A stretch of 14,226 nt of DNA from assembly GCA_003450555.1 (NCBI GenBank), contig DMFQ01000430.1, positions 1,031-15,256 of the forward strand. Direction: 5' to 3'. This DNA comes from Ktedonobacter sp. GTDB lineage: Bacteria > Chloroflexota > Ktedonobacteria > Ktedonobacterales > Ktedonobacteraceae. Below the pieces are notes generated by a model. The model searched no databases, was not told the DNA's origin, and saw only the letters and a program-made list of their open reading frames with translations. Of this stretch, positions 6,879-14,226 are shown in pieces. A program made the translations under genes and the position numbers. Position 1 is the first letter of the stretch, and each line of letters opens with the position of its first letter.

Positions 6879-6908
6879 AAGAGATTTGCTGTATGCTGAA
6901 GCGATTAG

Positions 6909-6937
6909 TCAACAATATACGTGTTCTGCATTATGTA
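6909..6937 (+). promoter_or_regulatory. Candidate promoter of the DUF1003 gene
   Basis: TCAACA (6909-6914), a 17-nt spacer and TATGTA (6932-6937). The start would be near 6944, which supports the ATG at 6979 over the in-frame TTG at 6886. Confidence 0.4.
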
Positions 6938-6978
6938 CAGAAGAGTTAGAATACCAACAAGTATTGGATGAACAGAGT

Positions 6979-7578
6979 ATGAATGAACTTGAGCGAGCTG
7001 CGAAAGAGAGCAGCGACTCAAACACCGATTTCGACAAGAAAACAAAGGAACAAGTAGATCCGATTGGTCAGAATATAGAGACAATAGCAGATCTGCACAT
7101 TCGCATGGAGAAGAAGGTTGATCGGCACCAGCGATCCATAGAGACTGTTACGGCTTTCCTTGGGCGCCCCAGATTTCTTTATATTATTCTCACTTTTGTC
7201 GCCCTCTGGATACTCATGAACGTTGCACTTATACTTTCGGGCTTTCACCCTATTGATCTTCCTCCATTTAACTTGCTGCAGGGAATCATCAGCCTAAGCG
7301 CATTATTGATGACCACTATTGTCCTTATAACTCAACAAAGACAAAATAGAGTGACCGAGTTGCGTCGGCAGTTAGATCTACAGGTTAATTTGTTGGTTGA
7401 GCAAAAAGTAACCAAGTTGATCGCGCTAGTTGAAGAATTACGTCAAGATTCACCCCATGTCCAGAATCGACAAGATCCGGAAGTTGAAGCGCTGATGGAG
7501 CCTGTGAACCCGCATGAAGTCGTTACTACGCTGAACCAGATGATAAAAGATTCAGCCAGGAAAATGGAAAAAGGGTAA
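6979..7578 (+). CDS. DUF1003 family two-helix membrane protein
   Basis: A 199-aa membrane protein with the DUF1003 core. After a charged 60-residue N-terminus comes the family segment DRHQRSIETVTAFLGRPRF, a first membrane helix (about 66-86, containing the conserved W-x3-N of ALWILMN), a short loop with DLPPFNLL, a second helix (about 99-118), QQRQNR, and a long amphipathic, coiled-coil-like stretch (about 120-165, ELRRQLDLQVNLLVEQKV). Both ends are probably cytosolic. The family is widespread and uncharacterised, often read as a stress or transport accessory protein. The frame is open back to a TTG at 6886, but that would start within 10 nt of the preceding terminator and before a candidate promoter. 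The ATG at 6979 is preferred, though its ribosome site (GGATG) is weak. Confidence 0.8.
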   Translation: MNELERAAKESSDSNTDFDKKTKEQVDPIGQNIETIADLHIRMEKKVDRHQRSIETVTAFLGRPRFLYIILTFVALWILMNVALILSGFHPIDLPPFNLLQGIISLSALLMTTIVLITQQRQNRVTELRRQLDLQVNLLVEQKVTKLIALVEELRQDSPHVQNRQDPEVEALMEPVNPHEVVTTLNQMIKDSARKMEKG

Positions 7579-7616
7579 AGCTCGCTACACTCTTATCTTT
7601 TTTGAAGTGCCTCAAC

Positions 7617-7645
7617 TTGACTTTTTTGGTACACCGTGGTATAAT
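7617..7645 (+). promoter_or_regulatory. Near-consensus sigma70 promoter driving a non-coding region
   Basis: TTGACT (7617-7622), a 17-nt spacer and TATAAT (7640-7645): 5/6 and 6/6 to consensus with ideal spacing. No long gene follows on this strand. Confidence 0.8.
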
Positions 7646-7743
7646 TAAGAGTGTTCCGAACAATAAGGAACGGTCCAGGGAAGCAAAGAGACCCTGGCAC
7701 AGGGCGTCGGCTCTGCCATTGGTAAAATCCGAAAGGAGATATT

Positions 7744-7803
7744 ATGAAGCCAATGAAGAAACCAGTACGCATTCTAGGGATGGTCTATCAAATTGACAAG
7801 TAG
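7744..7803 (+). CDS. Possible 19-aa short peptide within the structured RNA
   Basis: ATG at 7744 with AAAGGAG ending 5 nt upstream, 19 codons (MKPMKKPVRILGMVYQIDK), TAG at 7801-7803. The peptide is basic and I do not recognise it. The ribosome site is also the 3' arm of the GAAA-tetraloop hairpin at 7728-7737, and the ATG lies within the larger CATTGG/CCAATG stem-loop, so initiation could be gated by structure, as in leader peptides. Equally, the purine-rich stretch could be purely structural. The frame stays open for many codons after the TAG, without looking like a known protein. Confidence 0.3.
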   Translation: MKPMKKPVRILGMVYQIDK

Positions 7804-8021
7804 GGCCCGTACAGGCGGGCATCCGAGCCTCTGAGCGTCTGTCCATTTCCTATAACTTACCGGGTCTATTTCATGGTTGCACAGAATAGCCGGTCTTTTC
7901 GACGGCCTACGTCGCAGGTTGGCAGGGGTACACAGAGGGGTGTTGCTAAGGGCATACTTAAAAACTATCTTGCCCATATGTTTTGCAATAAATCTCGGTT
8001 GACGTGACACGGGAGTTGTGC

Positions 8022-8067
8022 AGAAAAGAAACACACAAGGACTAGATACCAAGAGTATCTAGTCCTT
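8022..8067 (-). terminator. Terminator of the mnmA-lepA operon
   Basis: AAGGACTAGATAC (8037-8049) pairs perfectly over 13 bp with GTATCTAGTCCTT (8055-8067) across a 5-nt loop, 27 nt after the lepA stop. On the minus strand it is followed by a T-rich stretch (complement of 8022-8036). The tract is interrupted by G and C, so efficiency is uncertain. The stem could also serve as the 3' end of the plus-strand RNA converging on it. Confidence 0.65.
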
Positions 8068-8093
8068 GCTGGTATTACAAGCGTTTTTGCTCC

Positions 8094-9896
8094 TTAATCG
8101 AGCGATAGTATCGCCATAAACGCCTCCTGGGGAATCTCCACGTTACCAACCATTTTCATACGCTTCTTGCCCTCTTTTTGCTTCTCCAACAGTTTGCGCT
8201 TGCGTGAAATGTCACCGCCGTAACATTTAGCGAGCACATCTTTGCGCATCGCTTTCACGGTTTCACGGGCAATGATACGTGAGCCAATGGCAGCCTGGAT
8301 GGGCACCTCGAAAAGTTGACGGGGGATAAGGCTGCGCAGCTTCTCAACCAGCGTTCGTCCCTGCACATAAGCCTTGTCGCGGTGGAGAATCAGCGACAGG
8401 GCATCTACTGGATAGCTATTGACGAGGATATCCAGTTTCACCAGGTCAGCTTCCTGGTAGCCGCCAAAGCTGTAGTCGAGCGAGCCGTAGCCCTGGGTGC
8501 GCGACTTGAGATGGTCGTAAAAATCAACAATCAGCTCCTGCAGCGGCATTTTATAGGTCAATAAGACACGCTCGGCCTCGATATACTTCATCTCTTTGAA
8601 GGTTCCCCGTCGTGAGGTCACCAGGTCCATAATCGTGCCAATATAGCGCGAGGGTGTGAAAATGGAGATATCCATCCAAGGTTCTTCGATTGTCTCGATG
8701 TCGCCAGAGGCGGGAAAATCCGACGGGTTATCTACTCTGACCATCGTCCCATTCAAGGGTGTGACATAGTACTCTACGCTGGGAGCTGTAGCGAGGATGT
8801 CCAGGTTGTACTCGCGCTCAAGTCGTTCCTGGACAATTTCCATGTGCAGCAGACCTAAGAAACCACAACGGAAGCCAAAGCCTAACGCATTTGAGGTTTC
8901 TGGTTCATAGAAAAGCGAGGCGTCGTTTAGCTTGAGACGATCCAACGCATCGCGCAAGAGCGGATAATCGCTTCCCTCAACCGGATAGATACCCGCGAAG
9001 ACCATTGGTTTGGCGGGTTTGTATCCGGGCAATGCCTCGACCCTGCCGAGGGCATGAGGAGTAGTTACTGTGTCGCCCACGCGACAATCTTTTACATGTT
9101 TGAAACCTGTCGCGATATAGCCAACCTCTCCCGCGGTCAAGCGACCGGAGGAGACCATGCGTGGTTGGAAGAAGCCCGCTTCTAAAATATCGGTCGTACT
9201 ACCAGCCGCCATCATCGACAGGCGTTCACTTTCGCGTAGCTGTCCGTCAACAATGCGCACATAGGCAATCACACCCTTGTACGCGTCATAATGCGAGTCG
9301 AAGACCAGGGCGCGCAGTGGCGCATCAGGATCGCCCTTGGGAGGCGGAATCTGTTTGATGATGGCCTCGAGAATCTCTTGCGTGCCGATACCTTCTTTGG
9401 CTGAGGCGAGGATGCACTCGTCTTTGGGCAGACCAATGACCTCCTCGACTTCTTGCTTGACACGTTCGGGGTCGGCGCTGGGCAGGTCGATCTTATTAAT
9501 GACTGGAATGATACTCAAATCGGCTTCCACAGCCAGGTATAGATTGGCTAACGTCTGTGCCTCGATGCCCTGGGTGGAGTCGATGACCAGTAGAGTCCCT
9601 TCACAGGCGGCGAGGCTGCGCGACACTTCATAGGTGAAGTCGACATGCCCCGGTGTATCGATCAGGTTCAATTCATACTCTTCGCCATCAAGCGCCGTGT
9701 AGCGCATGCGCACTGCCTGAGCTTTTATGGTGATGCCCTTTTCACGCTCCAAATCCATCTGGTCAAGCGTTTGCTCCACCAAATCCCGTTTGGAGACTGT
9801 TCCGGTAAATTCTAACAAACGATCGGCCAGGGTCGATTTGCCATGATCAATGTGGGCGATAATACAGAAATTGCGAATATGTGCTTGATCGGTCAT
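8094..9896 (-). CDS. lepA: Elongation factor 4 (LepA), ribosome back-translocating GTPase
   Basis: A 600-aa LepA of normal length. The GTPase domain has P-loop AHIDHGKS (14-21), switch I region [11 protein letters not shown]3 DTPGHVDF (about 81-88), G4 NKID (about 135-138) and G5 SAKEG. EF-G-like domains II, III and V follow, then the LepA-specific C-terminal domain with [25 protein letters not shown] and [24 protein letters not shown]. Family knowledge: LepA binds ribosomes, acts in translation under ionic or pH stress and helps 30S biogenesis. The ATG at 9894-9896 overlaps the mnmA stop (ATGA, 4-nt overlap), with GGAGG inside the mnmA end, so the two are co-transcribed and probably translationally coupled. 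A hairpin terminator follows the TAA at 8094-8096. Confidence 0.97.
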
Positions 9897-13052: not shown

Positions 13053-13118
13053 GGATGCTCAAAAGTGGAAGAGTTTCGCGCTGTAGTTCTACCTTATCAA
13101 CTTTACCAGGAGGAACGT

Positions 13119-14226
13119 GTGAACCGCAAATGTACATCTACGCTCTGGCTTCCCCTGCAACTCGCGCTTGGTCTCGTCATCATTGGCCTTTTAGTTAGCG
13201 CGTGTTCGCTGCCAGGCGTTCAATCTACTACCAATACCAACACCACAAGCCTTACTCCAAAGCCAACGCCTAAGAAATCTACGCATACAGTGGCAAGTCA
13301 ACCATCCGGCACAGGCAAGCTTCCCTCTGGCACACCCTTACCGCAGGATGAAGTCAAACCGCTGACCTTCAACCTGGCCTATAACGATGGAGCTATGGAG
13401 CAAGATGTGGCGCAAATCTTCACACCTGGCTCCGCCACATTCCACCAATACCTGACCCCGGATCAGATTGTACAGCGCTACGCGCTCTCGGGTGTCCAGC
13501 AGCAGCAAGTAACGGACTGGCTGACACAGCATGGCTATACCATTGATGCAACCGATTCACTCCACACGTCTATCAAAGTCCACGCCACTGTTGCCAACAT
13601 CGAACATACCTTGAATATCAAACTCAATTCCTATACGATCGACGGCTATCAGTTCTTTTTGCAGCAGGGTGAACCTAAGCTACCGGAACCTGTATCCTCG
13701 CTCGTCACTTCGGTTATCGGTCTGGATAATTTTGCTTTTCCGCAATTTCAGCCGCCATTCGGTTTTGCATCGCATACTGCCACCACGCTCTCCAGCGATT
13801 GTAGCAAGTATGGAGCAAAACAGACGCTGACGCGCAACAAATTGGCTGCCGCGTACCAGGTCTCTCAGCTCTATCAACAAGGGTACCAGGGAGAGGGTAT
13901 GACGATTGGTGTAGCTGAATTCGGCGATACCTACAATCCCCAGGACCTGGCGGCCTTATGCCACCTGCGCCGGTATTGCCGGCTCCAAATGTCCAGAATA
14001 TTGATGTGGACGGCCACCTCGCGTCTGGTACGGGACAAGGCGAGGCAACTATGGACCTGGAACTTATAGCCGGGCTTGCTCCAAAGGCGCAAATTCTCGA
14101 TTACCAGACCGATGGCAAGAGTACTTCCTTTGCTCAGTCGATGGTCGATGTCTTCAATCGGGTTGCCTCAGACCACAAAGTACAGGTGTTAAGCGTCAGT
14201 TATGGCACTTATGAAAGCGCTTTCAG
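13119..14226 (+). CDS. S53 family (kumamolisin-like) protease precursor lipoprotein, frameshifted and partial
   Basis: A secreted acid-type serine-carboxyl protease precursor. The GTG at 13119 is chosen because AGGAGG lies 5 nt upstream; an in-frame GTG at 13065 would precede that site. The signal peptide (residues 1-28) ends in lipobox LVSAC with Cys29, followed by a Thr/Pro/Lys-rich linker. The pro-kumamolisin activation domain spans about residues 85-220 (HQYLTPDQIVQRYALS, WLTQHGYTI). The peptidase domain begins around TRNKLAAAYQVSQLY and GMTIGVAEFGD. The frame then breaks near 13956: continuing it ends at 14069 in unrelated residues, while the -1 frame from 13958 gives the family sequence, including E-x3-D (GEATMD, codons at 14042-14056), the catalytic Glu and Asp of sedolisins, and LSVSYG. 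The catalytic Ser lies beyond the window. Confidence 0.85.
13950..13960 (+). other. Frameshift site in the S53 protease gene
   Basis: GCG-GCC-TTA-TGC in the upstream frame; one extra T in the TT at 13956-13957 would read GCG-GCC-TTT-ATG-CCA and join the two halves. It is not a standard slippery heptamer, so a real deletion or a base-calling error is more likely than programmed shifting. Confidence 0.75.

Follow-up and report, generated by a model that had tools for sequence, protein, structure and literature searches.

Comparison with relatives indicates that the apparent intergenic gap between a DUF1003 gene (6886-7578) and the opposite-strand gene lepA (8094-9896) holds a genuine small-protein gene that occurs across the order and is carried on a structured RNA (positions are those of the window, i.e., the whole 14,226-nt stretch of Ktedonobacter sp. 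DNA that was analysed). We give a probability of roughly 60% to the reading that this element is a standalone gene for a trans-acting, very small peptide, encoded on a structured and possibly dual-function RNA of ~300-420 nt. Judged from its sequence, the element has a promoter layout, a Shine-Dalgarno site, and an ORF under amino-acid selection; in many copies the Shine-Dalgarno lies in the loop of a predicted stem that holds or abuts the start codon, in most copies a predicted hairpin lies just past the stop codon or contains it, and the main copy carries a further paired domain. The features of the copy in the window are collected in Table 1.

Table 1. Features of the element in the window.
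Feature	Position	Strand	Sequence or remarks
Promoter	7617-7645	+	-35 TTGACT 7617-7622; -10 TATAAT 7640-7645; 17-nt spacer; extended -10 TG
Predicted transcript, ~418 nt	7652-8069	+	ends inferred from the promoter position and the 8035-8069 stem
Three 5' hairpins	7653-7715	+	P1 7653-7657/7667-7671; P2 7675-7680/7692-7697; P3 7700-7705/7710-7715
Start-codon stem	7717-7755	+	CATTGGT 7717-7723 / GCCAATG 7749-7755; Shine-Dalgarno in loop
Shine-Dalgarno	7733-7738	+	AAGGAG (in AAAGGAG)
Small ORF, 19 codons + stop	7744-7803	+	MKPMKKPVRILGMVYQIDK; ATG at 7744, stop 7801-7803
Stop hairpin	7805-7820	+	GCCCG-TACAGG-CGGGC; begins 1 nt past the stop codon
Outer helix P4, closing the 3' domain	7823-7998	+	CCGAG 7823-7827 / CTCGG 7994-7998
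Helix P5	7828-7938	+	CCTCTG 7828-7833 / CAGAGG 7933-7938; inner hairpins 7859-7894, 7900-7914
Conserved 3' module	7990-8025	+	around CTCGGTTGACGTGACACGGGAGTTGTGCAGAA
Long stem	8035-8069	.	probable terminator, also serving the convergent lepA operon

An initial annotation of this DNA had described the region as lacking a gene. It is correct that no long gene follows the promoter, since the plus strand has no ORF of at least 80 aa from 7579 to 8068; the 19-codon ORF, which is conserved as protein, was overlooked. A coding test was applied to the 45 main copies among the 58 found (39 distinct 42-nt cores; the 12 extra copies and the match in genome G167, both described below, were left out). The mean pairwise residue identity of the core, whose consensus over the relatives is KKPIRLLGMVFQID, was 0.767, compared to 0.542 (sd 0.038) for permuted alignment columns, with none of 2000 such shuffles, which ignore the kinship of the copies, reaching as high. 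The non-consensus fraction at codon positions 1, 2, and 3 was 0.13, 0.04, and 0.36, respectively, and no in-frame stops occurred. K1, K2, P3, V10, Q12, and D14 are invariant in all 39 cores, each being written with at least two codons, and G8 is mostly conserved. Selection on the amino acids, as looked for in a small-protein gene, is thus found, although part of the ORF's conservation may not be driven by the peptide, because the ORF near its start and stop is also constrained as RNA. The reading frame tolerates in-frame insertions (six additional codons in Dictyobacter-type copies and one in Ktedonobacter copies), and 40 of the 45 main copies encode peptides of 17-24 residues. Searches of Pfam, NCBIfam, and the PDB gave no match for the peptides tried, as expected at such a size.

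BLASTN with positions 7600-8080 recovered the element in 26 of 41 genomes, the window's own included, mostly as one copy each, and the 27 aligned matches share the promoter, leader, ORF, hairpin, and 3' part. A search of 84,980 species genomes with a degenerate pattern yielded 34 loci, of which 32 are titled Ktedonobacteria (Ktedonobacter, Thermogemmatispora, Dictyobacter, Thermosporothrix, and others) or Ktedonobacterales, Ktedonobacteraceae, or Chloroflexi; there was no exact pattern match in viral contigs and no BLASTN match in plasmids or phages. The other two pattern loci are titled Proteobacteria and Acidobacteria (L054 and L062), the first of these titles being probably wrong because L054 corresponds to a genome (G029) that is placed in the window's order. 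A covariance model of the ORF and stop hairpin (R1), built from 31 pattern loci and hence partly circular for those, matches 44 of the 47 genomes of Ktedonobacterales, including all 14 with at least 90% completeness and at most 5% contamination; the three genomes that gave no match are 84-89% complete. The element was probably present in the common ancestor of the order.

Outside the order, the model matched one of 353 Chloroflexota genomes, weakly (G167, E 0.0045), and one or two E-values of this kind are expected by chance over that many genomes. The match (L141:6087-6184), in another Chloroflexota family, comprises an ORF reading MNRKEPLALYGVLQVDR and a stop, a Shine-Dalgarno, and a hairpin past the stop, and may be either chance or a distant relative; eight of the nine genomes of that family gave no match at this level, with a second genome there reaching E 0.19. 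A scan of 56 loci returned 59 hits, of which 58 copies were kept after removal of a PAS-like hit in L112; the 45 main copies comprise one from each of the 44 genomes and L062. Mimicry of a PAS domain was considered in view of one weak model match (E 0.009) in a region that reads as PAS-like (GKPIRLVGVVYDIT). A peptide-profile search of eight genomes returned only scattered low-scoring matches outside the element, 13 of which were translated and displayed no PAS trend by eye, and the idea was rejected.

The sequence TTGACT-17-TATAAT, with a TG upstream of its -10 box, stands where the initial annotation placed it. The accompanying claim that this is the best promoter in the window holds insofar as its score (11/12) is the highest, and fails insofar as a minus-strand site at 12892-12864 (TGGACA-17-TATAAT, with TG) equals it; the whole window contains 21 promoter-like sites, compared to 16.3 (sd 3.3) in shuffles. 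Among the main copies with enough upstream sequence, 41 of 43 have the TTGAC-spacer-TA layout and 35 have the TG, as scored with a pattern that was written after the sequences had been seen and has no shuffle control. The long stem at 8035-8069 was listed as terminator-like for the minus strand alone, on which its T-rich tail is better, and terminator-like stems were found by scan or reading. Further along the window, at 13065-14224, a secreted S53-like protease (sedolisin-type, by reading) appears to be split over two overlapping frames (13065-14069 and 13958-14224), perhaps through a frameshift or an assembly error.

The setting of the element is often preserved. In 32 of the 44 related main copies, an opposite-strand lepA is found no more than 3.2 kb downstream, and in 25 the distance is at most 0.6 kb; in the window, lepA adjoins the element. 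Of the 12 without a nearby lepA, four have less than 1.6 kb of sequence, six are members of family f2, and L135 and L136 are members of f4. This synteny makes the main copy look orthologous across families f1, f3, and f4. lepA itself, which faces the element, is an improbable target.

Very short ORFs with a strong Shine-Dalgarno and hairpins after them are characteristic of leader peptides such as TnaC and the erm leaders. The element resembles these in all three respects, and in the Pro-stop ending of some copies, and 11 of the 45 main copies have a same-strand ORF as their nearest downstream neighbour of at least 90 aa, 365-915 nt past the conserved lysine codon. That the ORF serves as a leader peptide or attenuator for a downstream gene is nevertheless very unlikely: in 33 of the 45 main copies, that of the window among them, the first gene downstream is read from the opposite strand (lepA at up to 0.6 kb in 26, i.e., the 25 above and the window, and another ORF in 7), with one copy having too little sequence to count, so that a same-strand gene to be regulated is generally missing. 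Loci with extra copies (L106, L107, L108, and L111) also face an opposite-strand gene, the same-strand gene in L134 reads as ribosomal protein L19-like, and a terminator-like stem intervenes in L109 and L134 (by reading). Barring read-through into an unseen gene, this explanation is refuted at most loci.

The stems named in the initial annotation are present, namely TCC-GAAA-GGA within CATTGG/CCAATG (7717-7755) and ACCGG 7859-7863 paired with CCGGT 7890-7894. P1-P3 are recognisable in relatives of family f1 and absent from the f4-type leaders examined, and a purine-rich, Shine-Dalgarno-type site precedes the ORF in nearly all listed copies. Elsewhere, start stems of differing sequence (CATAAG/CTTATG, GGAAC/GTTCC, and others) enclose the Shine-Dalgarno. 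Over 40 of the 58 copies, the summed helix score of the start stem was 537.5, compared to 427.9 (sd 17.8) in shuffles, controls that, like those for the stop hairpin, P4, and P5 below, ignore kinship; about 10 of the 40 stand out individually, and the stems of L118, L122, L128, and L130, among others, are no better than their own shuffles. The 18 omitted copies were 14 near-duplicates, the truncated L111, and also L039, L107 copy 2, and L108 copy 3, which are not near-identical to any row kept. We infer that translation is restricted by the start stem, which may be responsive to some signal.

The stop hairpin is paired in all 155 cells of 31 sequences, its outer pair changing from G-C to A-U in four and its other four pairs being invariant, with two of the five measures in its test equalled by 240 of 500 shuffles. 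Among the 45 main copies, the hairpin begins 1 nt after the stop codon in 8 and 4 nt after it in 29, and contains the stop codon in 4; in the remaining 4, the ORF reads through it. The stop codon is inside the hairpin in 10 of the 12 extra copies. A ribosome occupying the stop codon would keep this hairpin from forming, and translation and 3' folding would therefore be coupled.

Beyond the stop hairpin, the main copy carries a 3' domain whose pairing is seen chiefly in P5. Where clear, this helix begins 5-11 nt past the stop hairpin and its closing arm follows ~90-125 nt on; the arms vary between families, and the pairing is kept in many copies (CCTCTG/CAGAGG, CCCCTG/CAGGGG, CATCTCCTGA/TCAGGAGATG, GGGTCTGC/GCAGACCC, GGGTCTACCG/CGGTAGATCC, CCTTCTCG/CGGGAAGG, and more). 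Its summed score was 737.5, compared to 628.6 (sd 19.2) in controls, over 43 copies, about 10 of which stand out individually; P5 is not clear in L128, L129, L121, L127, L062, L136, L138, and L122, and is weak in four Ktedonobacter-type copies. For P4, a score of 249.0 versus 201.7 (sd 14.5) over 21 copies is suggestive only. The sequence GGAGTTGT occurs in 21 of the 45 main copies and is absent from the aligned Thermogemmatispora-type copies.

In an alignment of 11 sequences, selected from 16 prepared (L145, L123, L117, L139, and L115 were left out) and with the structure written from the window's sequence, four helices pair in 94.1% of cells, compared to at most 52.4% when slid. Changes on both sides were found in 5 of their 20 pairs, a count reached in none of 500 shuffles, and the number of further pair types, reached in 158 of 500, was no better than chance. 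Compensating changes occur in the start stem, the stop hairpin, and the 3' domain, and structure is conserved beyond the ORF, as in dual-function RNAs, by statistics that ignore kinship.

The same region had initially been singled out as hairpin-rich, a description that by itself does not rise above chance in the window. The fold energy of 7652-8075 has a z of -4.14, which becomes -0.83 when the terminator stem is removed (-0.77 for 7652-7942 and -1.14 for 7820-8012). Much of the first value is owed to the terminator-like stem, so that the energy of the window's own fold counts as weak evidence. The rest folds at ordinary energy, and the case for structure rests on the relatives. Among 13 hand-picked copies, ten have a z of -2.39 or below and three are near zero, with the window among the latter at 0.47, a value due in part to a cut that removed the end of P5.

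Nine genomes have extra copies, 12 in all. They comprise three tandem ORFs in L108, two in L107, and single ones in L106, L109, L110, L111 (cut by the contig end on its 5' side), L113, L114, and L115. By reading, 11 of the 12 keep the ORF and hairpin without the 3' (P5) domain; in all except that of L115, the hairpin is followed by the next ORF or by a terminator-like stem. The copy in L115 is full-length and may be contamination, the assembly being rated 6% contaminated. In L108 (329-682), the three small ORFs, each with its hairpin, lie in one presumed transcript that faces a spermidine-synthase-like gene, and the first of them has no start codon. Those neighbours of the extra copies that were read have no common theme and include a YbaK-like gene, a histidine kinase, a spermidine-synthase-like gene, and a cupredoxin (named by reading, the cupredoxin by its similarity to the window's gene).

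The smallest unit that is repeated consists of the ORF and the structures at its two ends, and we therefore place the function in the peptide first; because the extra copies mostly dispense with the 3' domain and differ in their neighbours, the peptide would act in trans, on a partner common to Ktedonobacterales. It might bind a protein by strand addition, a guess prompted by the alternation of the invariant V10, Q12, and D14 (with the mostly conserved G8), as on one face of a beta-strand; the invariance of K1, K2, and P3 falls outside this pattern. The 3' domain may stabilise the RNA or provide a second, RNA-based role, as in a dual-function RNA. Counting against the peptide reading, the 3' domain is conserved beyond what a plain mRNA tail needs, the ORF passes through the hairpin in four main copies, and one tandem copy lacks a start codon.

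The roles could also be reversed, with the RNA as the effector and the ORF as a sensor. In this scheme, a ribosome that pauses at the conserved peptide or on the stop codon would keep the hairpin from closing and thereby change how the 3' domain folds or how long it lasts. The placement of the hairpin 1 or 4 nt past the stop codon or around it fits this explanation, as does the paired domain that the main copy keeps across families. A proline before the stop codon makes termination slow, and Pro-stop endings are found in 10 of the 12 extra copies and 4 of the 45 main copies. Most main copies, however, end in Asp or Asp-Lys/Arg rather than Pro, the read-through of the hairpin in four of them is hard to accommodate, and 11 of the 12 extra copies retain the ORF and hairpin but lack, by reading, the 3' domain; we regard this alternative as doubtful. 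A combination of the two, in which a conserved short peptide and a ribosome-coupled switch form one unit (the start stem, the stop hairpin, and the position of the ribosome setting the fold of the ~180-nt 3' domain) and yield both a trans-acting peptide and a regulated RNA, is put forward tentatively as a possibility short of even odds.

The tiny size of the peptide, the tandem arrays in two genomes, and the tolerated N-terminal extensions would suit a peptide that acts between cells, as a secreted signal, as a toxin, or otherwise, in place of an internal regulator. A promoter-like site on the minus strand inside the small ORF (TTGTCA-17-TAGAAT, 7799-7771, 10/12), which could be chance, also makes an antisense RNA conceivable. 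With respect to a type I toxin-antitoxin system, in which a hydrophobic toxin peptide is paired with an antisense RNA, the peptide reads as mixed in charge, and this site is the one promoter-like site seen on the minus strand inside the ORF. Against such a role, the peptide has, by reading, no signal sequence or membrane-span-like stretch, and most signal or toxin genes do not occur, as this one does, as a single and often syntenic copy in almost all genomes of the order, which makes this explanation unlikely.

The preferred reading, a peptide gene on a structured RNA, also has to be set against known RNA families. No match at the gathering score was obtained when the window and 18 related loci were searched against Rfam, as had been suggested; among the sub-threshold matches in these loci were microRNA models and a plasmid antisense-RNA model with a cut-off of 50 bits, which scored 24 bits in L012 (E 0.8) and 23 bits in L022 (E 1.1), in both cases over the terminator stem. 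The lowest E-value, 0.0026 (L014), fell some 400 nt upstream of the ORF. The initial annotation noted that Ktedonobacter genomes carry many HEARO RNAs and proposed that this may be such a relic. HEARO/omega RNA (RF02033) does share the genome with the element, its model giving three RNAs above the gathering score (131-135 bits; G000:C372:5794-6024, C405:7276-7508, and C57:1912-2145, i.e., L174-L176) and none at this locus. In tmRNA, too, a structured RNA contains an ORF, whose stop is at or in a hairpin (helix 5). The element shares both traits and differs in having its own Shine-Dalgarno and AUG; no tRNA or tmRNA (RF00023) and no tRNA-like ends were found in the window, and tmRNA is a separate gene above cut-off in ten of ten relatives (not above cut-off in the window's own incomplete genome). 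RNase P RNA and SRP RNA are separate from the element in five of five genomes, and 6S RNA (RF00013) had no match in the window's genome. With these families found elsewhere or unmatched, it is extremely improbable that the element is a relic of HEARO/omega RNA or a divergent form of tmRNA, 6S RNA, RNase P RNA, or SRP RNA. The other proposal of the initial annotation, a new class of structured RNA, gains support from the spread among relatives, the compensating changes, and the Rfam result.

By kind, the element most resembles bacterial dual-function RNAs, the subject of three papers (PMC8672173; PMC8152036; PMC4021124). Like SgrS/SgrT, SR1/SR1P, and VcdRP, it would combine a standalone promoter and a probable terminator with a small conserved ORF in a structured RNA; unlike them, it has a start-codon stem, a stop-codon hairpin, and, in two extra loci, tandem ORF arrays. 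No sequence relation to them was found in a comparison by Rfam only, and VcdP, the peptide of VcdRP, is reported to have 29 residues, compared to 19 for the window peptide. The element was not found described in Rfam 15 or in the open-licence papers searched, and the RNA-seq in one such paper is for Thermomicrobium, which is not a Ktedonobacterium (PMC6776052). It therefore stands as an undescribed element, related by sequence to nothing found in these sources and by kind a candidate dual-function RNA.

With only 19 codons in an apparent intergenic gap, the gene is easy to miss, despite its matches in nearly all genomes of the order. Ktedonobacteria include filamentous, spore-forming members. 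The near-universal and often syntenic presence of the element suggests that it has a core function in these bacteria.
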